A stretch of DNA of 64,000 nt. It comes from Cinnamomum chago (lineage: Eukaryota > Streptophyta > Magnoliopsida > Laurales > Lauraceae). The number at the start of each line of letters is the position of its first letter. Positions within the stretch are counted from its first letter, which is position 1. The stretch lies in NCBI GenBank assembly GCA_038049695.1, contig CP142452.1, positions 52,906,501 through 52,970,500 on the forward strand, read 5' to 3'. Positions 2,612 to 42,043 of the stretch are shown piece after piece. The notes under the pieces are model-generated. The model did not search any database, had not been told where the DNA came from, and saw only the letters and a list, made by a program, of their open reading frames with translations. The position numbers were made by a program, and so were the translations under genes.

Positions 2612-3442
2612 GTGGTAACCCATTCTGCGCCAATCTTTCCCCCTTCTCTTCCCTTCCTCCCCATCCGTTGCTCATTCCTCAGCACACCCATGTATATGCT
2701 TCGTGCAACCATGGTCTCTTCACTTATATTAAGTAATTGTACCATCAGACATTGGTGTTGCCTCGAATTCCTTCCTGCTCGAGTTATCAGATATATTAAC
2801 TTTGAGGAATTTTTTGTATGGCCACTGAAATATTTTGTACAACCATATGCATATGTTGCAACTGTACAATGTATTTTGTAAATTGAAAATGTTGGCTGTA
2901 TATCGTACATCCATGGAGATATGATGTAATGAATCCCGAATTGTAGGTGGGCAAACAACCTTTTAGATGTTAACACATGATTTCCAAATTGTACAGAATA
3001 TGGATGTTTGTTCGGTAAATCACAAGAGTGTGACTGTATATCGCTGCATCCAAATAAAGAGCCACACATGGTACGCCCGAAAACTCTGTTTCACACATGT
3101 GCGTACATGCAACATATGTGTCAGACTTTCCATATGGTATGATGTCCATACGATTTACACAATTGATTTTTCCTAAACTGATGCAGATGCGTGTATATAC
3201 ATCTATTAGTTGTGTTTGCGAGTGTTACAGGAAACAGGCGGATGTGCGAGTGAGAGAAAAAATTGGACAAAATTACAATTTCGGTAAGGCGCTTGCGCGT
3301 GTTAGTTAAGTTAGTAAGGTGTGTATGCGCGTGTTACTCTATTCGATAATGCGCGTAAGCACAACTCATAGCCGACGTGCATGCGAGTGACTAATAGAAG
3401 TCAACACTTCCATTTCCATTTGCACACGCTGGGACATGACCT
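2612..3442. other. Flank between Copia copy 1 and CACTA 1
   Basis: I see no gene here. ORFs of up to 156 codons occur but show no recognisable domain and overlap each other on both strands. About 75 bp at 2618-2690 match, in inverted orientation, 12350-12428 on the other side of the CACTA element. Confidence 0.6.
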
Positions 3443-3765
3443 CACTACAAGAAAAATTCCACCAACCACCAACCACCAACCGCTATATGTACGAAAACTG
3501 CCGCTAATATCTTTTGCGGCGGAAAAATTTCCGCCGCAACTTTTGTCGTAGAAAATCCCATCGCTGATTGTATTTGCAGCAGAAATAAAGATTGCTGCAA
3601 AAAAATTATCAATAGCGACAGTTATAAACCGCCACTAATTATTACTGTAACTTATAGCAGCAGATATCAAAAACTGCTACTACAAGTTAGCAGCAGACAT
3701 TACAAACTGCTGCTGTATCTTGTAGCAGCACACATCACAAACTGCTGCTAAAAATGTGAGATGTT
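3443..3765. repeat. CACTA 1 left subterminal repeats
   Basis: There are multiple short direct and inverted motifs: CCGCCGC, TAGCAGCAG, ACTGCTGCTA. They alternate as sense and antisense pairs (for example TAGCAGCAGACAT...AAACTGCTGCT), each able to form a small hairpin. In CACTA elements such motifs are the usual binding sites for the element-encoded TnpA-like protein. That role is inferred here. Confidence 0.8.
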
Positions 3766-5314
3766 CCCCATTAATTCATCCTAACCATTGATTAAAAGGC
3801 CTCAAAGTTTGAACATATCTTTTTATCTTTGTTTCTTTAGAATTTGTATGGTGCAGAGCGTTTTGCCTTAATCCATTGATGTTGGGTCCATCATGGTTTT
3901 CCTAAAAACGCCTCTTCTTGTTTGATGATAACTATTGATCCTTCATGGGTTTAATAGTATGAACTTAGGGTGATTCAAACCAACAATATCTATTACTCAG
4001 ATCAAGATCAAATTTGGGCCAATACCAACATGTGGTAGTAGATGATAGCACCGTAGGTAACATCTATTAATGGCGCAACTTGGGCTGGGCCAAGACCCAA
4101 TTCTAGCTGGCATGATCAGGTTTGGGCCCAGCTACCTAAATTAGGTATATTGAGTTCATATAATATCTGTATATACACATCATAAATGTAATATATATAT
4201 ATATAGGCCAATCCCACCCTGTCCCCAACCAGACTGTACCCTCGACAAATAACATTCCCAAACAAATACAGTGTAGAAAAACTGCCAGGATGTTTCCAAG
4301 TCTGGGGTTTTACTCAGTTTCGTATCTATCAGGATAAGTACTAATGATAGTTGATGGTTCTTTCATGTCCCAAGAACATGGCTTAAGATTTGGTGCCCAT
4401 GAAATGGTCAATTTCTGGCTGGCAATATTCCATTACTGAGATATCTTCAAGATACACCACTCAAACAGGACATGTGAAATGATATAATGAAAATTGGCCT
4501 CACTAAACCGAATCAACTGTTCCAACAGTTGCTATTGTCCCTTGCTACTGTCCTTTAGGTAATCCCACTCCTTCTCATCATCTGTTCCAACAAATGAAGA
4601 GCATTAGAGACTAACAAAACCAATCAGGTACATACTTAAAAAACCAATCAACTACACAAAAATGAACAACAATAACGACAACAAGATGATGATATAGAAA
4701 TAAATTTATTGTAATCACATGACCCATTACCATATTCTTGTGAGCTCGATAGGGGAGAATGAGAAAGAAGAAGAACAGTCAGGACAGCACAGAAATAGAT
4801 ACTCAGCATGTTTATATTTTTTTATGCAGACAGATTGCAAAGGCAATGAACTAAATGGAGTTTGGTTTCTACCTATGGAGAAATGTTGGAGAGTAAAGAC
4901 AGCTTAAATAAGCCTCAAAGTTGACGACCCCATAAGTAAATCGTGTTGGAAATTACTTTTCAAAGATGGAATCTTTTCTGCGGTCGAGCACAGTATTCAC
5001 ACATCATGCCCAGGAAAGAAACAAACAGCAAGTAAAACAAAAGCACGACAGTAGATACAGGGTAATATTCCTACGTACGCATCTGCAGATAATGGGACAT
5101 GGGAGGTGGAAAGATACTTTCATGATGAACTCAAATATCAAAATTAGAATCAATCTCGGGTCTTTTAACTTCTTCATCCATGGCCAATAAATTTAGCTAT
5201 TTGGCACACCTGTAATTAGAAGAAGCCTTTATTCAAGCCTTTTTGGAACTAAAAATTTCTGTGAGGATATGCTTTGCTGTGTCTCTCTCTGTGAACCAGA
5301 GGCGATTTTGCGAG
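3766..5314. other. CACTA 1 interior without recognised gene
   Basis: AT-rich, with no convincing exon. The segment just below 5315 probably contains the 3' UTR and downstream region of the captured MYB gene, since that gene reads on minus and stops at 5315. A short TA repeat lies at about 4190-4205. Confidence 0.5.
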
Positions 5315-6882
5315 CTAAATATGTTCAAATGCAGCCGCAGTTCTTGGAAAATCCTTACCGTATATATGAGACGCTTGCAACTGCTGCTGTTGGGCTGGAT
5401 TCCATGCGCTTAGTGTACTGTGGATGGTGGCAAACTGGCTCTCTGATTTTATCTCACCATACTGATTTTGACTCTGACTTTGGATCCCACTGGTCATTAA
5501 GATGCGGTGAGGGAGGAATTCAGACCATTTGATGCCTTCTGGCTCACCTTCTAGATTGATTGGAGCTTCTTTATCTGATGTTAAGTCCGATGACTCGACC
5601 CGGCAATCCGTCAATCCCCAAGAGAAGATGCTGTTCTCAAAAATAGAGCTGTTACTTTGCAATTCAATGCTACTACTGTTTGCACTGCTGCTGCTGCTGC
5701 TGTTACTGGAAGTTCCAGCCTCCCAGTACTGGACTCCATTAATATCACTAACACAGGCAATGGAAGAGTTTTCAGGTGGTGGGAGACTAACGATAGGCTT
5801 GAAAGCCATTGAAGTTCGAAGGACCGAGCTTGGCAGGGATGGTATCGCTGATGGTATAGTTTTAGAATTGAACTCAGAATTTATTTCGAAAGGCCGGCAG
5901 TTCTGGTTAAACCAGAGAACTGAATTCGTATTAGCCGACAGCCCAACAGAGGGCATCTCATTACTGCAATAGTTCTGGTTTATGTGTGTTTGGGTCAATG
6001 CCTCTCTGCCTCAGCTTCTTTTTAATGCATGAATTCCACAGGTTCTTGATTTCTTGATTTCATTATCAGTTCTTCCAGGAAGCTGTGTAGCAATCTGAGA
6101 CCACCTGAGGAAGTTAAAACAAAGGAAAAAACCTCAGAAATTTGTAGAAATTCTAATACAAGAAAATCTTGTTGACTGCTTTCAGATCATGAGAAAAAGA
6201 ATTTTCTTTTTCTGAGAAGCAAATAGAAGGTTCATTGATCAAAACAAAAACATCGAAAATAGGAACAGTCAATCAAGTTAAGACCGCAACCTCAAACAAG
6301 TAGAGAACATGTTACAACTGTACTGTGTTTCCAAATTCCAATCACGGCACCTGATCTAGTCACTGCTGCTTTTGCAAAAGCATCAGCTTCTCATTCCATT
6401 CGCCGAGGGATACATTCAAGGAACAATGGAGACTTAATCTTCAGAAAATAACTTGTAAATATTTTTTTTTCTGGTCATGAGATAGGGAAACAAAGATTAC
6501 CTGTTGCCTAAGACTGCATGGAGTTCGATTATCAGGTTCTCTTCTTGTGGTGAAAATGTACCCCTTTTCAAATCAGGCCTCAAGTAGTTTATCCACCTTA
6601 GCCTGCAGCTCTTCCCACACCTCTGAAGACCTGCAATATCACCATAGAAGGAAGCTGTCATTTAACAAATCCCCCAAGTGACCATAACTCAATTGCTCTA
6701 TTCTGCGTTGTGCAATTTTGAATTGAGAGATGGTGGGCAGACAAGGCACCTGCTTGTTTAGGCACAGAGCTCCAACACCCATGACCATATTTATTAATAT
6801 GCCTCATAAGCTTCTCATCTTCCTCTGGGGACCAGAGTCCTTTCCTCAATTTCTGCTTGTAACAGCAAGAATGCCTGCCCAT
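5315..6882 (-). pseudogene. Captured R2R3-MYB transcription factor gene (MYB61/MYB50-like), broken
   Basis: Exon 1 (6882-6750) encodes MGRHSCCYKQKLRKGLWSPE and the rest of the first half of the R2 repeat, and ends in a GT donor. Exon 2 (6630-6501, 130 bp, the common size for this family) encodes the rest of R2 and the start of R3 ([15 protein letters not shown]). Exon 3 starts at 6104 with the end of R3 (WSQIATQLPGRTDNEIK), then a long C-terminal region with serine runs and glutamine runs, stopping at 5315. The motifs place it in the group of AtMYB61/50/55/86, nuclear regulators of secondary wall, mucilage or stomatal traits. It cannot be translated: an 8-bp tandem duplication at 6046-6061 shifts the frame inside R3, and a second frame change precedes the C-terminal ORF (5998-5315). 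Both introns are present. Confidence 0.93.
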
Positions 6883-8166
6883 TTGATGCAACCCGCCAAC
6901 ACAAGGAATGTTCAACAAAGGAAAGGCTGGATTTCACAGAATTGTCAGCAAAAACAGACGTTTTGAATGGATTTGGCGGAGCGAGCTGTGTTCTAAAGTA
7001 GTGGAAATGTGGGAAAGAGATGGTGGAGCGGCTTTGTATAATGAATTGGCAGATAAAGAAACGGAAGTGAATTAAGGAGAAGGGAGGGGAGAAGGGAGGG
7101 AAGCTCAAAACAGAGAGAAGTCACAGTCAACAGGTTGATTGGAGCTAATGGTTTTTTCCGAAGTTGATACGGGTTATATTAATCTAAAGTTTTCAGATGT
7201 CTTATCAAAGCTATGAGAATTAATGTCTGCTGCAGCAATGGTAGGGTAATTCCTCTTATATTTTATTAGAGAAGAAACAGCAGGATTTAAACCCATGCTT
7301 GCAAGTTGTGAAAGTAATACTGAACATCCAACAAATGGGGAAAATCTTTCAAATGTTGTGCAAAGATTGTGGGTTAAACCATCTCCATCTATCTACTTCT
7401 CTGCATAGTACAAATGGAGAATCAGGTCGGTCATCCATTCTCCTAGATCATAAGTAGCACATATGGAAGATATATGTCATCAGGTTAAAGCAGTCTGGGA
7501 TCATTTTGTAAATTAGACTAGTGTCTGCTCAAACTATAACTGGGTCTTATGATCAATTGAAGATTGAGAGGAATACGGGAGTACATGATCCAATATGAAA
7601 CCAAGCTTGCAATCATCATCAGACCAGCTCTCAGCTACAGAATGGTACCCAGAGTAAGCATTCTATGTGATCTTCCACTTCCAGGATTAAAAAAAAAAAA
7701 AAAAAAACCATCATCATCATCTAAGCATATTATCAATCTTGGGTAGGCAATATTAGGTCTTGGTGGAACAGATAAATACCCCACAAAGACGAGACAGACA
7801 TATCCATACACTGTCAAGTACCCATCTCTGTTCTGATAAAAGATCTGAAGATAAGCTTCATAATGGGATGATTCAACATGGGAGGGAAAATAATTTAAAC
7901 AACAGAATCTTATATAATATTTAAATATGTAGTTCTAGGAAAGTGTCCATAGATCATCACAGAGATTTTACCCACGGGAAACAGAAGCTGCAAAATCACA
8001 GACAAATATTGTTTCAAATGGATCCCTTGGGGCTAAAACACTGCAAAATATACTAAGCAAGTTTGCAGGATGTCTTTGTACTTTCTCATCTTTTTAATAT
8101 ATTTGGTTACGATTAAAAAGTAAAAAGAAAAAGGAGGGTGAATCATCAGCAAAACATCTAATTTAC
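6883..8166. other. CACTA 1: MYB upstream region and unassigned DNA
   Basis: 6883-7130 is probably the 5' UTR/promoter that came with the MYB gene; it is purine-rich on + (pyrimidine-rich on the coding strand). From 7130 to 8166 no exon is recognised. A 20-base A-run sits at about 7688-7707. Confidence 0.45.
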
Positions 8167-8324
8167 CTGGACCATAACAAAGACTATTAGCACCATGATT
8201 CCAGCAAATAAGAATGGCCCAAGGAAGTGAAAATCATGGCCCTGCCTAGCCGCCTAGAATGTGTAAAAGGTGAGGCTTACCACCACCACAGCTGTCAGGA
8301 TCACAGATTCTAATACAACCTTCC
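8167..8324 (-). pseudogene. Captured BI1-like (LIFEGUARD family) gene fragment, two exons
   Basis: Two exons in order on minus. 8324-8281 follows an AG acceptor, encodes KVVLESVILTAVVV and ends in GTAAGC. 8241-8167 follows a CAG acceptor, encodes HDFHFLGPFLFAGIMVLIVF and a few more residues, and ends in GTAAAT. These match transmembrane segments of plant BI1-like/LIFEGUARD proteins, membrane proteins of the Bax-inhibitor-1 family linked to cell-death control. Only about 40 codons are present, with no start or stop, so this is a fragment. The short ~39-bp gap between the exons suggests that the intron was shortened or deleted. Confidence 0.75.
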
Positions 8325-10302
8325 CTGTTTAGAATTGAAACAATGAAAACACAGAATCAGAAAAAGGTAAAATCGACTAGTATATAAAAACCGAACAAAA
8401 CAAGATTAAATATCATCAAAAACACAAGAACAGAGAGACTACCAGAAATCTGTCATAGATTCTACCAAACAAATTTCAAAAAGATGATTGAAATAGGGTT
8501 TTTTTTTTTTTTTTTTAAAACCTACAATGACTCCAGCAGCATTTAGCTTTGATCATTTTTAATACATTCTCGGCTTCAACCATTTCTAGTAAACTCAATG
8601 TGGATGGCTGAGATCAATAAAAGCAACTAATATAGACTGCAAAGCCAACCACAACTTAGCCGTGACAGAAGTATCAGATTCCTAAGGAAAACAGAGCCAA
8701 AACATGATTGGAATGAAATCCTAGAGAAATAAAAAAAGAACAGAAACCAAATTGTAGTTGATAGCACAAAAGCAGGAAGTGAAACCAGTGGAGAGGGAGA
8801 AGTGGAATATCTGTTATCAACAGTGAGTGGAAAAACAACTTGGATGTCCTTTACCACTAATTAATTAAGTAGTTTACTACGATAATGCTTATCCACAAAA
8901 AGAGAAAGCTAGAAAATGACCTGCTTTTCGTGACAATGACTACCTCCTTTGTCTGTAGTGTCGCTCCTTATCATGATTTTATACATAAAAAGAAGATTGT
9001 TATTGACATGAATAATCAACTCCATTTTAAGATTGAGTAGCTTTGATCTCCACAGCTGGTTTGGGTCCTAGTCATGAATTTTGATGCACATCAAAACTGG
9101 ACACATTTGGATAATGAAGGCCACATACAGGATTTTGGGGTTCTGACTTCTGAAAACTCCAATGCTCAAGTAAGACTAACATACTAATATATCTGCTATT
9201 ATTTAGCAAAAGTTACTGTTTATAAAAAAAAACGACTTCCATACATGGTCTTTATTGATATCATGGCTAGTAACACCCTAAAACAATTTAAAGACATAAT
9301 CCTTGGGTGTAAAAGATCTAACACCTTTCTCCTCGCCCCCACAAAATCACTGGTTAATTGTAAATATTATACAAAGAAACTCATAATTTCTAATCATGAA
9401 TACAAAAAAATAGTACTTGTATACATCTCATGAAATTCTTGAGGGTAAAAAGGCCATCCTGTAAACTATGGATACAAAAAAATACAAGATACAGCCAGCC
9501 ACTACAGTTTCAAGAGGCCAAAAATCAACATCACTTCACACCCCAACAACTGAGAATAATTTCTTATTACCTCGCATACCCTCCCCGGTTAGAAATGGAT
9601 GATAATGAGATGTTAGCATTTAGTGATGGTGGTCATAAGATAAGATCTACAGTTGTCAGTGTTGATACCTGTTTAAGTTTTCAGCAGTTGGTGAATTAGA
9701 TGCAGCAATATGAAAGAAAATGAGAATTTGTAAAATGGTGAATATTAAATGCACCAACTGATCGGTGCAGATACCTCTTAAACTTCACTTGTGAGGCAAT
9801 ATATGAACTAATAAGTTTTACTGGGAACAAAGAGATATCCTTTGTAAAGGAAAAGTAAAAACTATTCAGGCACAGCTAATCTCAACGCATAGAAGAGGGT
9901 CAAATGGGTCAGGTCTCAGGTGGCTACAAAAATTCAGCATTGCTTCACATTGCTGGGTGTCCTTGCTAAAGATACTGAGGACATTGAACATTGGGACAGG
10001 GAATGATTCAAAATCCCTTCTATGGCTAAACCAGTGAGGCTAAATTTTTATAAATGGCTAAACCAGGAACCCTCAGTTATATGGTAGGGTGCACTGGTCT
10101 CACTCTACGCCCTACATTTCCTTGCTAAAACCTTGGGTCCTTCCTATTAGGAATGCCCCATCCCTCTAATCTTGTCTTGTGTGATGAAATTTGCAGTATG
10201 TGTATGGCTAAGATTCAGTGGTTTTTATTGAGAACAACGGAAATTGGATGTTATCAGATGCAATGGCACTGCATGTCTTGATAGTGTTGAGGTCAAGCTT
10301 AC
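8325..10302. other. CACTA 1 interior, unassigned
   Basis: AT-rich sequence with scattered short ORFs (for example 8627-8857 on minus and 9430-9699 on +) that show no recognisable domain. It may contain introns or 3' sequence of the captured genes. I see no transposase motif. Confidence 0.45.
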
Positions 10303-10728
10303 TTTTGAATAACCATTGGGCATGTCTTGAACCACACAACCAGAAGGCAGTCTCCTGCAATTGGTGAACGAAGATGCAGTAGGGGTTTCTCTAATGCCAT
10401 CGATAGACACATCAACAACAGCCCAAATGCCTTCTGCATGCTGCTTGCAGAACCTCAGAAAGTTTACTTCTCGGATTGGGACTAATGGAGACAGAACCTG
10501 TAGTTCAGCACGCATCAGCATGAGCCATGTAGTGGAAGACATAGAGCAGTTAGATTCCATGAGTGTGGCTGGGAGGACCAAGAAAAATCCAAGTAACACA
10601 AAAACTCCAAGTTGCCAGTAACTTACAAGTTGGATGGTACCATTTCTAGTACCACCCATGCCGCTGGATATTACATCTGTGGTGGAGGCTCTAGCAATTA
10701 AGCAAGGGAACATTTTTGCCCAACTATT
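10303..10728 (-). pseudogene. Captured HD-ZIP IV gene fragment (START domain)
   Basis: Exon A (10728-10627) follows a good pyrimidine tract and CAG acceptor. It encodes [20 protein letters not shown] and [10 protein letters not shown], and ends in GTAAGT. Exon B (about 10515-10303) encodes [37 protein letters not shown] and [19 protein letters not shown], and ends in GTAAGC. This is the lipid-binding START domain of class IV homeodomain-leucine zipper factors (ANL2/HDG/ATML1 group), nuclear regulators of epidermal fate. The homeodomain, zipper and the downstream half of START are absent. The expected AG before exon B looks lost (TG in its place), so the fragment would not splice normally. The 591-base ORF in this region simply reads through the intron. 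Confidence 0.9.
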
Positions 10729-11130
10729 CTGGTAAAGAACAGGAAAAGGATAATCAACACTCTCGATTGCCATGGACAGCATAGGCGCTGCATATTTGAG
10801 GATAAAATCATCCAACTGTTCTCATCTACTAAATCTCAGAGAAATCACTAAAAGACTTTATTCAAAAATTGTTGACATCTATTCCTCATCACCTTACGCA
10901 TTCCAAATTGCATTTTTTACGTCACCTTGAAAATCTCAGGCATCAAACTAAAAACTCAAACATCTTATTCATACATAAACCTCAACCCTAGAGAAAGAAA
11001 CACAAAAAAAGGCACAAAAATGAACAGAACAAGCTCCATTTCCAAATCCCACACAAAAACCACTCAAACTCGAAGAAATGGAACTACCTACCAGAGATCA
11101 AGAACAAGAAAAACACGATTTTAAGCTCAC
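10729..11130. other. CACTA 1 spacer between captured fragments
   Basis: AT-rich sequence, probably intron-like, lying between the captured first exon (donor near 11130) and the HD-ZIP exons. No coding motif was recognised. Confidence 0.4.
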
Positions 11131-11474
11131 CTCCGGAATGTCGACCAAAGCTAGGGGTTGAGATCGAGATGCTTCATATGATGGGGAATCGATCGAGAAA
11201 TGCCGCGATTTCCATGGATTTGCAGAGATATAGACCGTGAAATCCGAATCCAGTGCTGAAAACTTCGAAAAGGAGAGAAACACGAACATCAGAAACCCTA
11301 GATTTTTTATCTTCTTCTGCTCTTCTTCTTCTTTTGCTCTTGCTCATCTTCTTCAACACAAATGATCGGAATCACTGCATGGCCGAGGGGATTCGTAGGC
11401 GCCGATGAAGGATGGGAAGGAGATGAAGACGACGAAGTCGAAGTCGAAGTCGATGCGATCGGATCGTCCGCCAT
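11131..11474 (-). pseudogene. Captured 5' exon with start codon; possible dynamin-related (DRP3-like) N-terminus
   Basis: An ATG at 11474 opens a 55-codon frame to a TAA at 11307: MADDPIASTSTSTSSSSSPS, then a Pro/Ser linker and PLGHAVIPI, then a basic tail. The Ser/Pro-rich start followed by PLG..VIPI resembles the N-terminus of plant DRP3-type dynamins, but similarity ends after VIPI, so the assignment is tentative. A second open stretch (11289-11131, SKFSALDSDFTVYISANPW) ends at GGAG|GTGAGC, a strong donor. The 5' UTR upstream has AAACCCTA-type motifs common in plant leaders. Confidence 0.5.
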
Positions 11475-11585
11475 TGATCTTCTTCGAAGATCTGCAATCG
11501 ATTTAGGGTTTGAAGAAGCAGAAGAATAAGAGGATCTAGGGTTTTGGAAACCCTAGCAGAGAGAGGTAGAGAGATATATGGAGGT
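11475..11585 (-). promoter_or_regulatory. Captured plant promoter/5' UTR
   Basis: On the minus strand a TATA-like CATATATCTC (11580-11571) is followed by a CT-rich leader (CTCTCTACCTCTCTC), two AAACCCTA/TAGGGTTT motifs, and the ATG at 11474, about 100 bp downstream. The spacing fits a normal plant core promoter. It points into the element, towards the HD-ZIP, BI1-like and MYB fragments. Confidence 0.55.
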
Positions 11586-11639
11586 TTGCATTTTGGGACG
11601 AAAAGAGGTTTTGGTTTTGGTTTTGTGGGGAAGAGAACA

Positions 11640-12233
11640 AGAGGGAACGTACAGCAGCGGAAATATACTTTCCGCTGCTATATGTAGCTGTATGTATTAT
11701 GTTTTATGTATTTTTATTTGATGTTTATAGTGGCATAATATATTTTTATGTTGGTATAGATAATATGTATAGTGGCATAAGACATTTTCTGCTGCTGTAT
11801 GTATTATGTATAGTGGCATATGACATTTTCTGCTGCTATACGTAATATGTATAGTGACATAATACACTTTCCGCTGCTATATGTATTATGTATTTCCTAT
11901 CCATATATTTCTATTGCTATATGTATGTATGAGTATTATGAAAATATATACTTAGATTTAGTGACGGACCATACTTTTCGCTGCTATACGTTAATATGTA
12001 TTATGTATTTCACATACTTAGATGTAAATGTGGTGACGGAATATACATTCCGCTGCTATACGTTAGCGTTTATAGTGGCATAATACATTTTCTGCTGCTA
12101 TATGTATGTATGAATACGTTAATAGCAGCAAAATACAATTTCGGCCGCTGTATGTATATTGATAGTTAGATGTAGTGACAGATACATAAACCGCCGTTAT
12201 AAACTGCCACTAATTGTCACTTTTCTTGTAGTG
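11640..12233. repeat. CACTA 1 right subterminal repeats
   Basis: At least seven imperfect repeats of a ~50-70-bp unit contain CTTTCCGCTGCTATATGTATTATGTA-like and TAGTGGCATAATACATTTTC-like segments. The core GCTGCTA is shared with the left end. The repeats end in AACTGCCACTAATT and the inverted terminus. Confidence 0.85.
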
Positions 12234-13459
12234 CCTTCCATAGTTCCATGCCACCATCTTCTAGAGAGCACTAGAGTCTTTAATTGACTCTTCGAAGCAA
12301 TAGGAGAATAAGAGAAAAGAAGTGGAATAGAAAATCCATCGATCAACATTGGTGCGCTGAGGACTGAGTAACGGATGGAGACGAAGGGAAGAGAAGGGGG
12401 GAAAGATAGGCGCGGAATGGGTTTCCAAAAGAGCGGAAAGCATGGAGAAAGAGGCACGTTTGCGCGTGACTGGTGATCTCTTTAAAAGTAAAAACTTGAT
12501 CTCTCTGTAAGTTTTTTTTTAAAAAGTACTTACAATAGAAAAAGTGTCCTTACCCAGCTGTCAAGTTACCTACCTGGTTTTCAGGACTATTTTGGGCCTT
12601 TGCGTGTTTCCAAGTCTAGTCTAGGTCTTCTTGGATATTTTAGGATTTTTATGGTAATTGCTCCTAAAAATAATAAAACAATGAAAAAGTAAACACTTTT
12701 TTTTAAAATATTGTCCATCCTTAAAACTAGTAAAAGAGACATAGCCTCACTTTCTTCTTTAGATTATAATAGTAAAATCACCCCTCCATCATCATCATCG
12801 TCGTCGTCGTCATCATCTTCTTCAAAAAGTACCTTTTAAGCCTCATGGAAGAAAAAAAGAAAAAAAGGGGGGGCCCATGAAAGATTGGAGAGGAGAGAAG
12901 TGTTGGAACGGGCCCGAAAATCGTGGTAGGCCCTTTGGGTGAGCTATGATGGAAGAAAGAGAAGTGGAGAAGGGTGGGAAAAAAAAAGGGGGGTGAACAG
13001 TGACGCAAAATATAGTGCCCCTTCAATAGTTTCTTCCCCTCCCTTGGGTTCTTTGTAATATTTTTTGGAACACTTGTCCAAGTTATAATGCGTTTAGAAA
13101 AGGTCTTTATCTAAGGCTCCAAGCTTGGGATGGTTTAGGAAAGTTTGGAAGACAAACAAGAGTTTGTAGGGATTTAGAAAGTCTTTCCTATTTGAGTCTC
13201 TTGTCGTGTAAGACTTTCTAAAATTGGTCCCACTTGTAGCTTCTTGGAAATTTCTCATCATGGACCACCACAAATCTGAAAAACTATCTCAAAAGGTAAA
13301 AACCTGATTTTTTCAAACATTGGAGGGCCCCACATGAGGTGTGCACATAGCTGGTGGGACCCATTGGACTCCCACACATGGCTTAGGAAGCTTCCTTCTT
13401 GCGATTTCTTCTACTTTCTTGCTATCCAATTCTTTCCAAAATTGAAATCCTCAATTCAA
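12234..13459. other. Flank right of CACTA 1, no gene
   Basis: Contains the TSD CCT (12234-12236) and the inverted ~75-bp match to 2618-2690 (at 12350-12428). A CATCATCGTCGTCGT simple repeat lies near 12790-12820. The remainder is AT-rich with purine/pyrimidine runs. No supported coding sequence. Confidence 0.55.
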
Positions 13460-13681: not shown

Positions 13682-14322
13682 TAATTCAATTTTTGTAAGA
13701 CCCCTACCCGAGTGACCTCGATTAGTATTGATTAAGTCGTATTTTAGTTTTAAGCGTGATTAGTGAATGCTGGTTAAGTTGGGATTAGAATAAATCTTTT
13801 ATAGCTTTGGGGAATTTTGAGTGCCTTTATACTTAGTGGGACCCTTTGGGGGTTCCTTTTGTGACTTTGTGTTTGCTTGGGGGATTTTCTGAGATTCCTG
13901 TGATTTGTATCTTAATCCTGTTTTACTTATCTCGCTAATCTCTTCAACTTTTATGTTGATCCCGTTCCCGTCTGGAACCCCGAAACCCGACTTTCCTAGC
14001 ATTGAGGGCAAAACCATCCTTTTTACACTAAATTTGTACCCAAAATTAGATATTCCCGAAACCCTTGAAATATATACTTTTTGGAAACTAGAAATTTCGA
14101 CGATTGTTTTTTTCTTCTTCGTCGAACTCATATGAGGTCCTAAAAGCCGTGATTTTAGCCCCATAAGAATTTCAAGTGGTGGAGCACATCTCATTTGCTA
14201 TAAAAAGAGATCCTTCTTCCTCTTTTCCCTTTTTCCAGCTCAAACCAAACCCCAAGCTAGGGTTTCACTTTCCTCTTCTTTCCCTTGCTCTTCCATCTCC
14301 ATATCCCCACCAAACTTGCACC

Positions 14323-16082
14323 TGTTGGAAGTAGGTAGGCCTTTCGGATAGGTTTCAAAAACTTTTGACCCACCTAATGTAGGGATCATCTATGTAGAAG
14401 GTAATAAAACCCAATTCAGGATGCAATCTCTCAAACTCATAAATCATGTACAGCAATATAACATATCTAGAAGATGGAAAACAACACCTAAACATGCAAC
14501 CACGAAATCTACAACATACAAGGATGTAGATTATACATTTGGAGCTTGGTAGTGCTCTAATGGAGAAGTTATGACTTTCTTTGATGATGAAACACTTTCA
14601 CTAATCAAATCAGAATCTCCAACACCTTTTGATCTTCCACGCTATGACCCGTATCAGATTCTCTTTTCTCAAGAAGATGGTGGAATCTCTAAGAGAAAAC
14701 CCTAAAGGAAACTAGAATTGAACTAGAAGAGGGAGAGTAAGAGAAGTGTGCAACACGTGCACAATCCTAGGCTTGGGCATGAATCTCAATAGTGGAATTG
14801 TGCATAGGGACGTCCAAGGCACTCCTCCTCTAATTTATAGCTCTTAAGCAACCTCCTCCTACTAATTGAAATAGAAGTCTTACTTCCACAATAATTAGTA
14901 ACATACTAAATCACAATTAGAAGTCTCACTTCAAATATGATTAGTAACTTTATCCTTTTCTAATTAAAATAGAAGTCTCACTTCCATTAATAATTAGTAA
15001 CTTACTATTACCACTATTAGAAGTTTCACTTCAAATAGAAATAGTAACTTTCTATTTCCTTTTAGAGTTCTACTAGAATTAGTATCTTTCTAATAACTTG
15101 GGCTAGCGTGAGGACCACTAGGGGTTCCTTAGAAAGCTGACTCCAACTGGGACACGCGACCCCACATCTCATGTGCAATCCGGGCCCATAGTTAATTGCA
15201 AATAACTCCACTATATAAATGCAATTGAACTCCAGTCTTAGGAATAAATTACAATGAAGACCCTAAACTTCCCAATTACCACAAGTAGGCCCCTCCATCT
15301 ATATCCATAGATCAATTGGACATGTCCACCAAATTAGATCCATACCTTATTATCCTTGAGCCCCAATTGATTATAATGATCATTTGGTACCAATCCAATT
15401 AACTCTTAATTGGAATGGGTGCGCATTACCAATGATAAATCCATTAATTGGCACAAGGGGATATTAAAGATAGATTCCATCTTGATCATTGAATGTTCTC
15501 ACAGCTCTACTACCACGTACCCAAATCACCGAGGTGTTGACCTACAATTGGCCTTACTCATTGGTGACTCAAAGCAAATGAATAGATAGAAACTTGAGTT
15601 CATTAATGTCTCGGGATTATGAGCCTATTGCTAGGGAATTATGAAAGCAGACCTTAAAGTAAAGACAATGTACATAAGGTGATTCTCATGGTCCTTCAAT
15701 ACATCCAATATACCAGTACCATGATCCAGAATCTTACATTCTGATGATCGAGACAAATCACACTATCTCATAGTGATCAAAGTGCTACAATCTTGTCAAA
15801 TGAAATGCCCAATCTCATTACTGGTTGTTAAGATATTTAAATATAAGATTTGCAATACATATCTCCTCTATGTGGATCTCATTCATGCACATGTATTCCA
15901 TCTAGTATACTTGTGGACTCCGGTTCATCCCATGAACCATCATGTCATTCGTATTGGTTCTGTGCAAGTATATAATTAAACACTATTCATCTCATGAAAG
16001 GAAAGCATGATTGTATTGATAAATAAAGAAACTAATCAATTTATTACATCATATACTTGATATTGAGACCATAAAACTAACA
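14323..16082 (-). repeat. Copia copy 2, 3' LTR (1760 bp)
   Basis: On minus it begins TGTTAG (16082) directly after the polypurine tract and ends CTTCCAACA (14323). It keeps the ~376-bp segment lost from the 5' LTR and matches copy 1 (853-2611) over its full length. Confidence 0.96.
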
Positions 16083-16100
16083 ATCTCCCACTTGGGCTCA
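16083..16100 (-). other. Copia copy 2 polypurine tract
   Basis: On minus the sequence is GCCCAAGTGGGAGAT, immediately before the TGTTAG of the 3' LTR. This is the plus-strand primer site typical of plant Copia elements. Confidence 0.85.
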
Positions 16101-16397
16101 ATGTCAGTCAAGATTGTATCTCATGCCCATCCCGTCTACATGCTGCTCAAAGACTTTGGTGGTCAAAGGCTTAGTAAAGGGATCTGCCAGATTGTCCGCA
16201 AAAGCTATCTTGGTGATTGCAATGTCACCTCTCTGCACAATCTCTCTAACCAAGTGATACTTCCTCTATACGTGCTTTTGGCTTTTATGGCTCCTGGGTT
16301 CCTTGGACTGAGCGACTGTCCCGCTGCTGTCACAGTAAACTGTGAGCGGCTGCCGCACCAAAGGTACAACTCCAAGTTTCAAAAGGAATCTTTTGAG

Positions 16398-17982
16398 TCA
16401 TACTGCTTCCTTAGCTGTTTCACAAGCCGCTACATATTCAGCCTCAGAAGTGGAATCAGCGGTACATTCCTGTTTAATACTCCTCCAGTTGATAGCTCTT
16501 CCGCCAAGCATAAACACATAACCAAAGGTGGATTTCCTGGAATCCTTGTCTGACATAAAGTCAGAATCTGTGTATCCCACTGGAATCAGTTCATCACTGT
16601 CGTAAATCAATATGTAATCTCTAGTCTTTCTCAAGTACTTGAGGATACATTTTACAGCAGTCCAATGGTTAGGACCTGGGTTAGACTGATATCTGCTGAC
16701 TAAGCCTACTGTGGTCAGTACTATGCTATGTATTAGCAGTACATAGCATAGCATAGCATAGCATACATGCTATGTACTATGTTATGAACTAGACCTGGGT
16801 TAGACAGATAGATATCCGGTCTAGTACATAGCATAGCATACATGAGGCTACCAACAGCTGAAGCGTATGGAATTGCTCTCATCTGCTCCTTTTCCTCCGG
16901 GGTCTTGGGACACTGGTCCCTGGAAAGGTGCACTCCATGCCTAAAAGGTGTGATACCCTTCTTGGAGTCCTGCATAGCAAATCGTACCAGTACCTTAATT
17001 ATGTAAGCAGCCTGAGACAAGCCAATCATCCTATTTTCCTGTCTCGATGGAGTTTGATCCCTAGGATGTAACTAGCTTCTCCCAAGTCCTTCATATCAAA
17101 AGTCTTTGCTAACCAAACTTTTACTATTGACAACATTCCTATATCTTTCCCAAGGAGAAGGATGTCGTCGACATATAAAACCAGAAAAACTACCCTGTCA
17201 CCTTCATTTTTCATGTACACACATGACTCATCCGAATTTTGACTAAGACCAAATGATTTGATTGCCCGGTCAAAACGGATGTTCTAGCTTCGGGATGCCT
17301 GCTTCAGTCCATAAATAGACTTCTACAGCTTGCAAACTTTTTGCTTTTGGTTACTAGCTATAAAACCGTCTGGCTGCATCATATAGATGTCTTCTTCAAG
17401 ATGGCCATTGAGAAACGCCGTCTTGACATCCATTTGCCAAATCTCATAATCAAGGTGAGCCGCTATAGATAAGAGTATCCGGATGGACTTGTGCATGGCT
17501 ACCGGCGAGAAGGTTTCCTCATAATCGATACCCTCTTTCTGAGTATACCCTTTCGCAATAAGCCTAGCCTTAAAGGTCTCAACTCTTCCATCTGATCCTC
17601 TCTTTCTCTTGTAGACCCACTTGCACCCAATAGGTTTGATATTGGCAGGCAAGTCCACAAGTGTCCAGACCTGATTAGAGTACATAGACTCCATCTCAAC
17701 TTTCATAGCATCATGCCAACGTCCCGAATCTATGTCATTAATTGCTTCATCATAGTTACAGGGATCCTGTTCCAATTCTTTTGGGATTGCCTCGTAAGAC
17801 TCTCCCAAGAACGAGAACCTGTCAAGGGTCCTGACTATCCTCCCAGTACGACGATGCACTGGTGTAACTACTGGGTCTGGTAAGGGCGGTTCTTCCTCAA
17901 GTTCAGTCATACTTGGATTTGGAATTGATTGCTCTTGAATCTCTTCCAAGATCACCTTTTCTAGAGATTTTCGGTCCATCAT
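16398..17982 (-). pseudogene. Copia reverse transcriptase-RNase H, broken
   Basis: The 17982-17323 frame holds the start of RT (VWTLVDLP, GCKWVYKRKR, ARLIAKGYTQ, QMDVKTAFLNGHLEEDIYM) and ends at a TAG where a Gln is usual. The 17220-17026 frame has the catalytic YVDDILL box. 17029-16733 carries the C-terminal RT/RNase H linker (DSKKGITPFRHGVH, SLMYAMLCTRPDI). 16754-16398 carries RNase H (GYTDSDF, KSTFGYVF, EAEYVAA). Breaks are in-frame TAGs at 17323-17325 and 17284-17286, a frameshift near 17026, and a rearranged CATAG-rich insertion at about 16700-16830. Confidence 0.95.
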
Positions 17983-22363: not shown

Positions 22364-23747
22364 TGTTGGAAGTAGGTAGGCCTTTCGGATAGGTTTAAAA
22401 AACTTTTGACCCACTTAATGTAGGGATTATCTATCTAGAAGGCAACAAAACCCAATCCAGGATGCAATCCCTCAAACTCATAAATCATATACAACAATAT
22501 AACCTATCTAGAAGATGGAAAACAACACCTAAACAAGCAACCACGAAATCTACAACATACAAGGATGTAGATTATACCTTTGGAACTTGGTAGTGCTCTA
22601 ATGGAGAAGTTGTGACTTTCTTTGATGATGAAACACTTTCACTAATCAAATCAGAATCTCCAACACCTTTTGATCTTCCACGCTATGACCCGTATCAGAT
22701 TCTCTTTTCTCAAGAAGATGGTGGAATCTCTAAGAGAAAACCCTAAAGGAAACTAGAATTGAACTAGAAGAGGGAGAGTAAGAGAAGTGTGCAACACGTG
22801 CACAATCCTAGGCTTGGGCATGAATCTCAATAGTGGAATTGTGCATAGGGACGTCCAAGGCACTCCTCCTCTAATTTATAGCTCTTAAGCAACCTCCTCC
22901 TACTAATTGAAATAGAAGTCTTACTTCCACAATAATTAGTAACATACTAAATCACAATTAGAAGTCTCACTTCAAATATGATTAGTAACTTTATCCTTTT
23001 CTAATTAAAATAGAATTCTCACTTCCATTAATAATTAGTAACTTACTATTACCACTATTAGAAGTTTCACTTCAAATAGAAATAGTAACTTTCTATTTCC
23101 TTTTAGAGTTCTACTAGAATTAGTATCTTTCTAATAACTTGGGCTAGCGTGAGGACCACTAGGGGTTCCTTAGAAAGCTGACTCCAACTGGGACACGCGA
23201 CCCCACATCTCATGTGCAATCCGGGCCCATAGTTAATTGCAAATAACTCCACTATATAAATGCAATTGAACTCCAGTCTTAGAAATAAATTACAATGAAG
23301 ACCCTAAACTTCCCAATTACCACAAGTAGGCCCCTCCATCTATATCCATGGATCAATTGGACATGTCCACCAAATTAGATCCATATCTTATTATCCTTGA
23401 GCCCCAATTAATTATAATGATCATTTGGTACCGATCCAATTAACTCTTAATTGGAATGGGTACGCACTTACCAATGATATCTTCACTAGTTGTGAAGATA
23501 TTTAAGTATAAGATTTGCAATACATATCTCCTGTATGTGGATCTCATCCATGCACATGTATTACATCTAGTATACTTGTGGACTCCAGTTCATCTCATGA
23601 ACCATCATGTCATTCGTATTGGTTATGTGCAAGTATATAATTAAACATCATTCATCTCATGATAGGAAAGCATGATTGTATTGATAAATAAAGAAATTAA
23701 TCAATTTATTACATCATATACTTGGTATTGAGACCATAAAACTAACA
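22364..23747 (-). repeat. Copia copy 2, 5' LTR (1384 bp, internally deleted)
   Basis: Same ends as the 3' LTR (TGTTAG...CCAACA) but 376 bp shorter. The sequence jumps near 23475-23490 from the segment matching ~15437 to that matching ~15826. Outside the deletion most of the LTR is nearly identical to its partner. The terminal ~185 bp at 22364-22550 carry about a dozen differences. Confidence 0.95.
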
Positions 23748-35104: not shown

Positions 35105-38081
35105 GACCAATTCGATTAGTGTGCGATTAGTATGTGTTTAGTCCTAAGTGGATTTAGTTATTGTTGGGTTAGAAGTGATTAGTTTTAGTCTTGGACATAG
35201 CTTTGAGAATTTTGAGAACGTTTAGTATTAGTTAGACACACTCAGGAAGGCCTGAGTGCACGTGTGAGCTTGGAAAGATCGTATCGATTTCCGTGTGATT
35301 GTGATTTTGATTTCATTCGAATGATTTTTCTATGAGTTACAACTTTCGTTTTAAGGCCATTCATGTTTGAAGCCCAAAAAACCCATGTTTTGGCCCAAAG
35401 AGGGTAAAATTGTCTTTTATGCACAAATCTGGACACAATTTTCGAGATCTCAAAACCATGTCAAAAATATACTTTTTGGAAACTAGATATTTCGACGATC
35501 GTTTTATCCTTCTTCGTCGAAGTCATCCGAGGCCCACAAGATCGTGTTTTGGTCACTTCATGATTCAGCTAGTTAGGGCCCATTAACCTCACTAAAGTCC
35601 CATCTCCCTCTCTTTTCATTCATTTCCCCAATCTCTGCAACCTCTTGACCTAGGGCAAGGAAAGCTCTTTTTCTCTTCCATCTTCCTCACCTTGCATGAT
35701 CTAGCTAGAGGACTCCAAAGAAAATTCTAAGAATACCATCTTCTTCCTCTCCTTGCAAGCTTTCCATTGATACAAGTTTCTTGGAGCTTCTTGTGGAACA
35801 AACTCTACATTGTCTTCATTCCTTCTTGTGTGGCCATTTCTAGGTAAGAGTTTCTACTCATATCTTTCATGGAGTTATTTTGGTTCCTTAAGATCATGTT
35901 TTTCATGTTTACAAACCCTTTTGTTAAAATGGGTTCCTTGGTTCCATTTTTTGAGTAAGTTGTGTGGTTTTCTCTTGGGTTTTCTTGTAGTGTTGGCTTC
36001 GCTTTTGAGTGAAGTGCTTGGAGAGGATTGTTAGCATTTGGGCAAGGCAAGTAATCTCTATAGGACCATTGTGCATGTGTATTTTAAGCTACATTGTTGT
36101 TTTGGAAATTTTGCATATGAATATGTTTACAAGCTTCATGATCATGTTCTCTTCGGATTGAATGTTTAAGATTTGGAAAAATATGTGTTTTGTCCCTTGG
36201 AGAGCATGTAGGCTTAGAGAGTGCAAGTGGAATGAGAACAAGAAGAAGGGAAGAAGAAATGTGCAAAAATCTGCACTGGACTGCATTTCCCGTGCAGTTC
36301 GGTCAGCCGTCGGTCGGCTGGCGGCTAACCGAAATCCCCATTTCGGTTAACCGCTAGCTGACCGAGCTCGGCGGTTCCCTTTCCAGAAGCTGACATTTCG
36401 CCAGGAAGTTGCGGTCAGCGAGCGGCTAGCCGCCATACCCCATCTCGGCTAACCGCTGACCAACCGTGCATTGTCGGTTTCTTTTCCCGAGAGCTCCATT
36501 TCAAACTGGATTTCCCGCGGTCAGCCCTACGGTCAGCTTACGGCTAACTGTAAGCCAACCACAGTCATTTCGGTTTCTTTTCCAGAGGGCTGTGTTGGAC
36601 CTGGGTTTCCAGCGGTCAACTTGTCGGTCAGCTGGCGGCTAGCCGCTAGACCTTATTTCGGCTAGCCGACACCTGACCGCGAGGTGACCGAAATTGCCAA
36701 ATTTCCTGTTTTGAAGAGATTTTTGCAAGAATGAAAATTAGAACATGTTAAGTGGCCTTTAGCCTGATATTATGCACTCAAAACCCGAGATGTCCTTGAA
36801 CTTCTGGGGCACTAATTCCGTTTTATTCCAACATCTGGGCTTCGGCTGCACAACGATCAACCAAAGGTTCTTGCATGAACTTGATAGGCTTTGTATTCGT
36901 ACTTTGGTTTTTGATATGATGAATATCATCGTGTACTCGTTTTGAAGTTAAGTACAAGCTAGTTTTGAAGATGTGTTTCAAGAAAAAGGGGATCACTTCC
37001 TAAGCGTGTTATGCATATTAATTATGCTCTTGCTAGCCGTGTTCATCGTGTTTTGATAAGTGATTTCCTCCTTTTTATCTCGACAAGTTTTGTTAATATC
37101 TCGCGTGTTTTGTGCATTCATGAATTAAGTAAACACCACTGAGCTTAGACTGCCCTTTCAGTTTGATCCACTGCCTGGGGGTCTTTAAACATGTGGACTG
37201 TCTGCAGACTGGTCGTGTATTTATTACACATCGTGCGTGTCCGGTTTCGCGGCCGGAATTCCCGTCTTTGTGGGAAATCGTGTCGTGCTTATATTATGTA
37301 TATCGTGCTTGTCGTGCGTGCTTGCTCTTTTCATTATATAAATGATAGAGAAAGGATGGGCTCTTTGTGTATTGAAACTATTCATGATATATTATGTACT
37401 CATGCTAGTTTGTTTTAGTATCTCAGCTCAGTTATCTATTTCTACAAATGTACCTCAGTCATGATAGTATTTCAAATCAAGTATTGCTTATATGTTTTCT
37501 TAAACATTATTGTTCATGCTTGCTCCTAAATTGATTACCTGCCAAACCGTTGGGTTTGACCCTTGTTTGTTGGTGCCCAGGTGCATGAGACGTTACCTTT
37601 GAGGAGGAGCTTCAGGAGGAGGCTTGTGAGCCAACCCCTGTGAGAGAGTGGTAGCTCGACGATGTCATCTAGACGTCGGGTGGGTTCTTGAGTCTCGTCA
37701 TCTTTTGTGGGGGTTTCTTTTGATTATTTTGGAGGATTGTATTGGCCTCTGTTGGCCTCTTATGGGTTGTAACCAAACTTGAAGTGCTTTTGAATTAGTC
37801 TCATAACTTGAATATTAATGGGAATGCCATGTTAGCTTCTTTCTTTGATACTATATCTTGTTATTATTTGTCATGGCACTTAAATATTTTATTGATGCTC
37901 ATGGTGATGTGTTTTGCTACACGCTTCCGCAAACTTGATCGTGTGAGTCAGATTCCGCGTGTCTTTGGGAATCCTCACCGCGGGAACCTGTGGGAAAGTA
38001 TATCTCCAAAAAGAATAAAAAATCCAATGTACAATTCAAAAATGCGTCGCGGGCCCGGGGCTCTGTTCCGGGGTCGCGACA
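35105..38081 (+). mobile_element. Solo long LTR 'E' (2977 bp, 5' end trimmed)
   Basis: Ends CCGGGGTCGCGACA at 38081, followed by CCTGTATTCTG, which in LTR F (56037) is preceded by AGTAA. The left edge starts GACCAATTCGATTAG, lacking the first few bases (TGTGA) of the terminus. The same junction lacks ~0.9 kb of LTR D. One deletion can explain both. It shares the block order of LTRs A and C. Confidence 0.85.
36296..36700. repeat. Palindrome cluster (CGGTCAGC/CGGCTAGCCG type) in LTR E
   Basis: Four groups of nested palindromes and inverted pairs built from CGGTCAGC, GCGGCTAGCCGC, CGGTTAACCG and GCTGACCG. They are separated by ~50-bp spacers containing TTTCCAGA/TTCCCGAGAG. It occupies the same relative place as the cluster in LTR A, but with a different core. 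Confidence 0.9.
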
Positions 38082-38092
38082 CCTGTATTCTG

Positions 38093-38150
38093 TCAGACCA
38101 ACCGCGGTCAGCTAGCGGCTAACCGCCAGTTGACCGCCAGGTGACCGAAA
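38093..38150. repeat. Palindrome cluster remnant in LTR D
   Basis: GCGGTCAGCTAGCGGCTAACCGCCAGTTGACCGCC-type sequence: inverted pairs of CGGTCAGC and CTGACCG around CGGCTAACCGCC. It is the partner of 56058-56105 in LTR F. The rest of the D cluster was lost in the deletion next to LTR E. Confidence 0.8.
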
Positions 38151-38499
38151 TCGCCCAGAAATGTCAAATGAAGAGAAATGAAGAGGATTTCCGTCCCAAT
38201 CATTTGTGCACCCTTTTAGAGAATGACGGGGACTGTTCACTTGGAGATATGTTTGGAGCCCGTTCGAGAAAGAAACCATATCACAATGACTCATTTGAAG
38301 TTTCAAAAATCCCAAAGTGTATAAGGACCCCGAAATGTCCCCAAACTCAAAGAGTACCAAGTCTTTATTAATATTGACATACGGGATCCCTATTCACCTT
38401 GAACTAGTCTTGAATCCTAATACTTGTCCTGAGATTTCAAAAGTTCTATAGTATTTCATTGTTCCCGAATTTATACTTCAAGACTTATTATTCCACTAC

Positions 38500-39320
38500 A
38501 ACAAACTGCACTTTTTCCGACGTTTTTTAGCGACGCTTTTATAAATTCATCGGTAAATAATACTTTTTACCGACGTATATAATTTCGTCGGTAAAGATAT
38601 GACTTTTACTGACGTTTTATAAAAAAAAGGTCCCTAAAAGTCTACTCTTTACCGACGTTTTCCAAAAAAACGTCGGTAAAAGTTCAATTTTATCGTTAGC
38701 TTATTTTTAAGGGAAAATAAAAATCACAGACTTTTACCGATGAAATAAAAATGTCGGTAAAAGTATTTTTATAATTTTTTTATTTTTATTTATCCTTTTG
38801 CAGACTAAAAAAAACGTCGGTAAAAGTATTATATTTATTTATTTATTTATTATTTTACCGACGAAAACCACCGTTGGTAAATGTATTTTTATCTTTTTTT
38901 TATTTTATTTCTTACTTTGCCGACGAAAAAAACGTCGGTAAAAGTATTTTTATACTTTATATTTATTTTTCTTTCTTCTTTTACCGAAAAAAAAAAAACG
39001 TCGGTAAAAGTATTATATTTATTTATTTTTATTTTACCGACGAAAAAACAACGTCCGTAACTGTATTTTTATATTTTTATTTTATTTCTTATTTTGCAGA
39101 CGAAAAAAAACGTCGGTAAAAATACTTTTATATTTTACATTTATTTTTCTTACTTCTTTTGCCGACGAAACAAAACGTCGGTAAAAGTATTTTTTAATGT
39201 TTTTAGATCTTATTTTTTTTTGGCCGACGAAAAAAAACGTCGGTAAAAGTATTTTATGATTTTTATTTTTATTTCTACTTTTGCCGACGAAAAAAAACGT
39301 CGGTAAAAGTTTTTTATTTT
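38500..39320 (+). repeat. CACTA 2 left hairpin-unit array
   Basis: About 11-12 units of ~60-70 bp, each a short inverted pair CCGACGAAAAAAAACGTCGG separated by TAAAAGTATTTTTATTTATT-like AT spacer. The mirror array is at 49850-50725. A related, more decayed stretch lies at 41325-41740. Confidence 0.92.
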
Positions 39321-39559
39321 CTTTAAAAATGCTATATTTGTTTTTTCAATATAATTTTTCTGTAAACTTGTTTATACACCTGTATCAAAAAATAAACCTG
39401 TATTCAATATAAAAAATGCATGCAAACAAAAGTTACTAAATAAACAAACAACCATCACCATTTTTCATCAAATCATTCACCTCATTAAACCAATATTACA
39501 TTCAATAATGATACAATCACATATAAATGTCCAATATACATATACAAATAAACTAAATA

Positions 39560-39700
39560 GAATAAAACAGCCTCAGAAATCTACAACCGACCCCAAATCG
39601 CTCATCAATATGCAATGACAAAAACAACAATAGAAGCTTTTCAATGAATTAAATTATAAATGAAAGATAAACATGTATATATATAAATCTTTTCTTAAGT
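39560..39700 (+). repeat. CACTA 2 left arm, mirror of 49495-49610
   Basis: TGCAATGACAAAAACAACA.. and ..AAGATAAACATGTATATATA read here are found inverted at 49495-49610. This shows that the terminal inverted repeat reaches beyond the hairpin units. Confidence 0.85.
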
Positions 39701-41043: not shown

Positions 41044-41750
41044 CCTTTACAATTCTAATTTGAAATTCAAATTTGTATTATCAATTGGAACACATGATGG
41101 GCCCCACTTCTGTGTGCAATGCTTGAAATTCCCTTACCTTGGATGTCCTTTATATGGTTGGATTTTCTTTTGCATTTTTTTTCTTCTTTGTTTGGCTTGA
41201 ATTGAATATTCCAACCAGGTTAATGTGGACCCCATGTAGAGCTTCAATAGCTTGGTTTTCTTTTTTTAATTCTTCTCTTGATTTATCACTTTCGTGGGTC
41301 CCAAGAAATTGACTTTACCTAAAAAAATACCGACGAATTACAAAACGTCGGTAAAATCGTCTTTTAGCGACGTTTCCGTGGAAACCGTCGGTAAAGTTCA
41401 ATTTTATTATTAACTCCATTTTAGGGAAAATAAGCATTCCTAAAAATAAAATTAAACATTATCGACGAATTTTATGACGTCAGTCAAATGAAAATTTAGC
41501 GACGTTTTTTGTAAAATGTGGGAAATGTAAACTTTATTTTTATGAAAATTAAAAATCAGAGTTCTTTACCGACGAAAATTAGCGTCAGAAAATTTATTAC
41601 CAACGTTTAATATAAAATGTGGATAAAAGTTGATAGACTTTTTTACTTATTTTTAAATAATAAGAATAAAATAATTTTTACTGACGAAAATCCTTTTTTT
41701 GCGACGAAATATAAACGCGGGTAAAGTCCACTTCTTTTTTTCCCTCTCCC
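41044..41750. other. CACTA 2: between array and captured leader
   Basis: No gene. 41325-41740 carries degraded CCGACG/CGTCGG hairpin units resembling those at the left terminus (including a GTTCAATTTTAT.GTTA block also seen near 38680), so part of the terminal region is duplicated inside. Confidence 0.6.

Positions 41751-41978: not shown

Positions 41979-42043
<65 letters not shown>

Follow-up and report, generated by a model that had tools for sequence, protein, structure and literature searches.

How pieces of several unrelated host genes come to lie on one strand between a single pair of transposon ends, and whether such a composite works as a gene, are the questions raised by positions 3443-12233 of a 64,000-nucleotide stretch of Cinnamomum chago DNA (contig CP142452.1, here C2:52906501-52970500; hereafter the window). 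The locus is a well-preserved, non-autonomous CACTA element of a known kind, a Pack-CACTA. At a probability of about 0.88, it is read here as an element mobilised in trans, in which host DNA was gathered stepwise and whose gene pieces would be mostly neutral passengers. The genome searched comprised 14 contigs (1.06 Gb), and only the best candidates of each search were scored, which makes all copy numbers lower bounds.

The 13-bp terminal inverted repeat (TIR) CACTACAAGAAAA is exact at 3443-3455 (plus strand) and 12221-12233 (minus strand), with CCT as the target site duplication (TSD) on both sides, as the first-pass annotation had recorded, and direct and inverted subterminal repeats occupy about 3.5-3.8 kb and 11.66-12.2 kb of the window. 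The TIR matches 14 places in the window at up to two mismatches, three of them exact, namely the two element ends and a lone right TIR at 35980-35992. When the flanks are joined with one CCT removed, they match an empty paralogous site at C1:116537385-116537793 without interruption (query 78-506, 77%), the alignment spanning the join at query 260-262, and an adjoining second piece covers query 3-138 at 88%. Further left ends were found at at least 31 places (best 40 of 261 candidates scored) and further right ends at at least 38 (best 40 of 197); among the 32 left and 39 right places, at least seven left-right pairs lie less than 20 kb apart, the window element counted. The TIRs starting with CACTA, the 3-bp TSD and the direct and inverted subterminal arrays are features of the CACTA (EnSpm) superfamily, while host coding DNA between TIRs, parental copies elsewhere and multiple element copies are those of Pack-CACTA or Pack-TYPE elements; a six-frame Pfam scan of both strands detected no transposase domain inside the element.

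Whole-genome DNA searches divide the interior into blocks (Table 1) that contain parts of six identifiable host genes, encoding an amino-acid transporter, a carbonic anhydrase, an R2R3-MYB, a BI1/LFG-like protein, a START-domain protein and a dynamin-family protein. Sources lie on C1, C3 and C10 (C10:73.63, C3:118.39, C3:12.26, C1:9.99, C1:106.69 and C1:124.04 Mb), their homology stops at the segment junctions, and match ends at several junctions overlap by 1-11 nt. The first-pass annotation had proposed pieces of at least three host genes, all in one orientation and with introns kept, downstream of a captured promoter and first exon. All of these were recovered on the minus strand, to which the carbonic anhydrase and transporter pieces are additions.

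Table 1. Features of the Pack-CACTA element (window coordinates).
Feature	Position	Strand	Basis
Left TSD, CCT	3440-3442		Sequence and empty-site alignment
Left TIR CACTACAAGAAAA and subterminal repeats, CACTA family	3443-3849		Exact TIR, repeats, further left ends in genome
Amino-acid transporter gene region, intronic or upstream DNA with no recognised exon	3839-4395	-	L003
134-nt stretch between transporter and carbonic anhydrase pieces	4396-4529		Genome search
Carbonic anhydrase gene part, ending within an exon	4530-5197	-	L002
R2R3-MYB gene, near-whole	5197-7323	-	Donor L033 and Pfam
Captured segment	7317-7949		Matches C1:124040824-124041444, 96%
BI1/LFG-like gene block; recognised coding part is exon 8167-8324	7946-9749	-	Pfam and genome matches
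Two START-domain exons and the intron between	9753-10767	-	Pfam and C3 donor
Two segments, 10766-11011 and 11004-11368	10766-11368		Each at many loci
Dynamin-family gene, upstream DNA and start of first exon	11364-11588	-	C1 donor
Right subterminal repeats and right TIR	11589-12233		Exact TIR, repeats, further right ends in genome
Right TSD, CCT	12234-12236		Sequence and empty-site alignment

The MYB piece is the most complete, since what had been taken for a fragment of an R2R3-MYB gene is a near-whole gene with flanks. Its ATG is at 6882 and its frame ends near 5318, about 440 bp upstream of the ATG are included, and both introns (119 and 396 nt, GT/AG) are retained. The donor L033 (C10:73633510-73635942) has an intact open reading frame (ORF) of 456 codons and matches the captured piece at 98.6% and 97.3% over two blocks, with 1.2-1.4% substitutions. 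The flanks of L033 past the captured stretch align to those of a MYB paralogue (L047) and neither TIR pattern was found in its 10 kb, and it is taken as the native donor on these grounds. At least 15 further loci, donor excluded, carry 0.5 kb or more of this MYB at 93-99% (best 40 of 77 candidates scored). In seven of these 15 (L029, L035/36, L037, L040, L041, L043 and L045) the examined stretch contains a CACTA TIR, and no sign of a CACTA element was detected in the stretches examined of L030 and L032.

Regarding the other genes, the transporter piece matches L003 (C3:12256556-12257147) at 92% with 2.5% substitutions, an Aa_trans exon (L003:2996-3592) lying downstream there on the same strand, equivalent to window minus. 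The carbonic anhydrase piece matches L002 (C1:9985292-9985966) at 95% with 3.75% substitutions, and the Carb_anhydrase exon L002:2102-2377 spans the capture edge at L002:2175. For both pieces the donors were the sole other loci among the best candidates scored, and the 134-nt stretch between them matched nothing other than the window itself on the same terms. The BI1-like piece stands as a single exon, with a Bax1-I score of 33.8 bits, slightly below the curated cut-off of 34.1; related exons occur at many genomic loci, and candidate sources of the block are C7:47846792-47847768 and C2:18040397-18042966. A likeness of this exon to Psb34 among solved structures (E 0.024) was set aside as not meaningful. 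The START exons match their donor (C3:118386072-118387086) at 98%, with another START exon 2.1 kb further along (C3:118388637) that was not captured, and the START match 88-166 is found without its partner exon at seven other loci, the window counted. A single match of this piece to solved structures (E 0.61) was likewise not meaningful. The piece had been called HD-ZIP IV; the profile search gives START alone, and the HD-ZIP IV label is presumed from sequence motifs. The captured promoter and first exon proved to be the 5' end of a dynamin-family gene, with upstream DNA and the start of the first exon: it has an ATG at 11474, is cut after 'NPLGHAVIPI', and matches C1:106689469-106689692 at 92%, where the gene continues into Dynamin_N.

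Related elements document how the composite was assembled. Sisters at C11:10137284, C8:61577131, C7:1.10 Mb and C2:35.12 Mb carry MYB and LFG pieces, the first three also START, and C12:55872536-55877009 matches window 7750-12233 at 96-99%. In the C8, C11 and C2:35.12 sisters the left CACTA end is joined straight to MYB 3' flanking DNA, whereas the window element alone has the transporter and carbonic anhydrase pieces between them. In the C11 sister, START and the right block are separated by a Clp_N exon, to which C8 aligns at 98% and which is absent from the window element. A second group (L034, L035/36, L037-L039 and L043-L046) carries 93-96% versions of the MYB, with other genes beside it in all its scanned elements except L043; the Nudix, 2OG-oxygenase and raffinose synthase segments of L037 have many copies in the genome. 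Because the sisters carry overlapping subsets, lacking the transporter and carbonic anhydrase pieces and in two cases having Clp_N instead, capture is, on these comparisons, stepwise, an option that had been raised in the first-pass annotation.

Left ends diverge by 3.8-9.5% between the window element and its sisters and by 1.9-4.6%, mostly transitions, among the sisters, compared with 0.8-1.5% inside. Recombination exchanging the entire left arm was considered and not adopted, since the sisters also differ among themselves there. Two further observations concern these copies. Across 7950-9690, comparison with L029, L040 and L041/42 gives at least as many transversions as transitions in six of six pairs, and in these four copies transitions predominate at the left CACTA end. 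In the C2:35.12 sister (L041/L042), MYB exon 3 is interrupted by a stretch with long polyprotein frames, presumably copia-like.

The reading frames of the captured pieces are broken. MYB exon 3 of the window copy has an 8-bp tandem duplication from 6060 on the minus strand, which shifts the frame, and has lost about 330 bp at 5970/5977. The BI1 exon has an in-frame TAG at 8254-8256, common to six other close copies and absent in three copies of 91-94%, and the START splice acceptor has changed from CAG to CTG at 10516-10518 (still CAG in L029, L031 and L040). The dynamin frame meets a stop shortly past the junction. In 16 MYB copies compared with L033, private substitutions number 69 for 1078 nonsynonymous sites and 21 for 290 synonymous sites, as expected under neutrality (p 0.61). 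The same crude count in two native MYB paralogues gives a ratio of nonsynonymous to synonymous rates (dN/dS) of about 0.39 and 0.24. The MYB copies thus look near-neutral since their separation, with a reservation for substitutions shared among copies.

The following course of events would account for the element. Transposases encoded by autonomous CACTA elements would have mobilised it in trans. At each capture, genomic DNA of an unlinked gene would have been copied together with introns, untranslated stretches and part of the upstream DNA; short homologies would most likely have allowed template switching while an excision gap or a broken element was being repaired. The composite would then have transposed whole, giving rise to sister copies that took up further pieces or shed them. 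Transcription entering at the dynamin 5' end or at the right CACTA end may run through the gene pieces, but these would not encode a working chimeric protein.

Several results weigh against this reading. The transporter and carbonic anhydrase pieces, with 2.5% and 3.75% substitutions, diverge more from their sources than does the MYB (1.2-1.4%), which late capture in its simple form would not predict unless L002 and L003 are indirect donors. MYB substitutions found in two or more copies number 18 nonsynonymous and 14 synonymous, fewer nonsynonymous than neutral (p 0.004); these are probably in part changes of a constrained donor lineage. A functional MYB cargo was ruled out on the broken frames, although the shared substitutions point the other way. 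Finally, among the matches listed, an autonomous element with both family ends was not found, and only two right ends had a transposase within 20 kb on the inner side.

Regarding orientation, all six genes of the window element read on the minus strand, the MYB, START and BI1 pieces by their domains and the transporter, carbonic anhydrase and dynamin pieces by the strand of the donor gene; the six-frame control found no Pfam family on plus. Strand was likewise examined in L037, L034:1-5000, L035:5215-9113, L040:8430-9460, L045:5401-10000 and L043:5500-10000; in the other stretches longer frames were viewed by eye. On minus, L037 carries Nudix_hydro, 2OG-FeII_Oxy, Raffinose_syn and Myb, L034 carries Raffinose_syn and Myb, and L040 carries Clp_N, with none on plus in these three stretches. 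Nudix_hydro in L035, and Raffinose_syn and bZIP_1 in L045, occur only on the strand equivalent to window minus; the bZIP stretch of L045 is also present at another locus, L046, and L043 has no Pfam family on either strand of its stretch. The ends of the related elements align to those of the window element in the same orientation where visible, the left ends of L034 and L045 lying outside the view. The co-orientation noted in the first-pass annotation therefore extends to all 11 distinct captured genes identifiable in the stretches examined, which read inward from the right TIR (two-sided 2 x 0.5^11 = 0.001 if independent). For the six genes of the window element alone the value is 0.03 if independent; the elements were found via the shared MYB, so that independence is not assured. 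An unnamed minus-strand ORF (L034:3092-3580), in which no Pfam family was found, was left out of the count. So was a PRA1-family exon (L031:7131-7598), which is parallel to the MYB of that locus, since its placement inside an element is not established; L031:6000-8200 was Pfam-scanned on one strand only.

The transposase of related elements offers a direction for comparison. Of 1658 Transposase_21 candidates in the genome, the best 150 were scored and all match; these and 150 Transpos_assoc places were compared by eye with the 32 left-end and 39 right-end places. Among the matches listed, two right ends, resembling that of the window element at 74% and 72%, have a Transposase_21 place at most 20 kb away on their inner side, which in both cases runs inward from the end: C3:116679593 (minus) with the right end C3:116686256 (plus), and C10:32186423 (plus) with the right end C10:32173184 (minus), 6 and 13 kb inside, respectively. 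Under an even spread about 0.11 such pairs would be expected by chance, a rough figure given that CACTA elements cluster. No left end has any of the 150 listed Transposase_21 places within 20 kb, and the 150 listed Transpos_assoc places are all further than 20 kb from ends of either type. The two cases hint at the right TIR as the promoter end and at captures that run parallel to the transposase.

A tentative reading, more doubtful than not, is that host genes are captured or retained by this CACTA family one way only, their sense running leftward from the right TIR and parallel to the transposase of related elements. Such a rule could arise in capture itself, if that step is directional (as with template switching linked to replication or transcription of the element), or from silencing that filters out elements whose transcripts are antisense to living host genes. 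A pattern without any directional rule, due to chance or to the small size and relatedness of the sample, is a somewhat doubtful explanation of 11 genes in 11, or of six in the window element, on one strand. In its favour are that the elements were picked via a shared MYB, so that captures are perhaps not independent, and that only pieces detectable by Pfam or with readable donors were counted. In the grapevine element Cactavine-5, according to the available part of the report, a PPR piece and the transposase also run in opposite directions (PMC2528002), and the one-strand rule is for this reason not general for CACTA elements. Capture bias, a silencing filter and chance are all candidate causes of the co-orientation, and no claim is made that the bias is unreported.

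The element may instead matter as a source of small RNAs acting on the donor genes (MYB, dynamin and START), with or without benefit to the host, which is judged unlikely. High identity to donors (98.6% and 97.3% for MYB, 98% for START) and the many copies make cross-talk possible, and small RNAs have been proposed, in the portion of the report available, for gene fragments borne by transposable elements in maize (PMC2773423). The pieces are mutually sense, so that no antisense RNA to the donors would come from one transcript running leftward, and double-stranded RNA would require rightward transcription or RNA-dependent RNA polymerase (RDR) activity.

Selection for a chimeric coding transcript, which the first-pass annotation had entertained, fares worse. 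A functional chimeric gene, transcribed from the dynamin 5' end leftward via START, BI1 and MYB into a spliced product under selection, would suit the parallel coding pieces, the GT/AG borders of the MYB introns, the dynamin 5' end with its start codon at the right end and the deficit of nonsynonymous changes among shared MYB substitutions. The available account of the soybean element Tgm-Express1 also has captured pieces spliced as exons (PMC1947982). Comparison of frames and splice sites in the window copy did not show the conserved reading frame and splice sites of such a gene, given the early stop past the dynamin junction, the BI1 TAG, the START acceptor CTG, the MYB insertion and deletion and the neutral pattern of private substitutions; a chimeric gene is thus very improbable. 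That two CACTA ends simply enclosed a native row of adjacent host genes is next to impossible, since apart from co-orientation, which alone would suit a row of genes, no support for it was found, the six sources lie at unlinked places in this genome and homology to them stops at the junctions. A single syntenic locus, which the first-pass annotation had named as the finding that would overturn its reading if seen in other species, was thus looked for in this genome and not found.

As far as the available text of the relevant reports goes, the closest described case is Tgm-Express1, a CACTA element in the soybean wp allele that carries intron and exon pieces from five host genes unrelated to one another and whose transcripts use captured pieces as exons (PMC1947982), a use that implies their co-orientation. 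The window element shares with it the CACTA ends around co-oriented pieces of unrelated host genes and differs in its genes and host, its near-whole MYB, its documented sister elements and the breakage of some splicing signals and frames, and it is known here from DNA alone. Like the Pack-CACTA elements of Arabidopsis and maize, in the latter of which multi-locus capture is common, it is non-autonomous, with CACTA TIRs, a TSD and coding DNA from several loci; no strand rule for captured genes was found in the part of that literature available, in contrast to the 11 of 11 described here. A strand bias is known for Helitron captures. Maize Helitrons, of another superfamily and with another mechanism, have similarly gained gene pieces over successive transpositions, as seen via related copies in the available text (PMC3288121). 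The available portion of the wheat chromosome 3B study lists 145 genes captured by CACTA elements (families Vincent and TAT), one gene being present in two families, with 13% reported as expressed and dN/dS below 0.4 (PMC4290129); the private changes in the MYB copies of C. chago look neutral by comparison.

Other repeats were observed in the window. An inverted repeat of about 2.1 kb (84%; 512-2612 and 14322-16432) flanks the Pack-CACTA at a distance, and part of it recurs at 22364-23492 (97.5% to 14323-15450). A second, different CACTA-like element (38494-50729) has the TIR CACTACAACAAACTGCACTTTT and two arrays of a 172-bp tandem repeat, 39705-41045 and 48271-49325, which are inverted relative to each other. 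An empty site for it is present at 56036-58038, where a 93-94% copy of the flanks 38081-38494 and 50734-52345 has them side by side.

The element is richer than first described, and its value lies in the one-strand pattern and the clear stepwise record. With an intact donor, many captured copies, sister composites and an empty site, it provides a clean series for gene acquisition by CACTA elements. It also carries a warning for annotation, as a single MYB is represented by gene-like pieces, with introns and flanks, at 15 or more further loci, at least seven of them with a CACTA TIR. Regarding orientation, an anecdotal co-orientation becomes a testable rule for one CACTA family. Should the rule be true, it becomes possible to ask whether strand bias arises from the capture step or from silencing selection, and the element would serve as a natural record of strand choice by transposons in the DNA that they capture.

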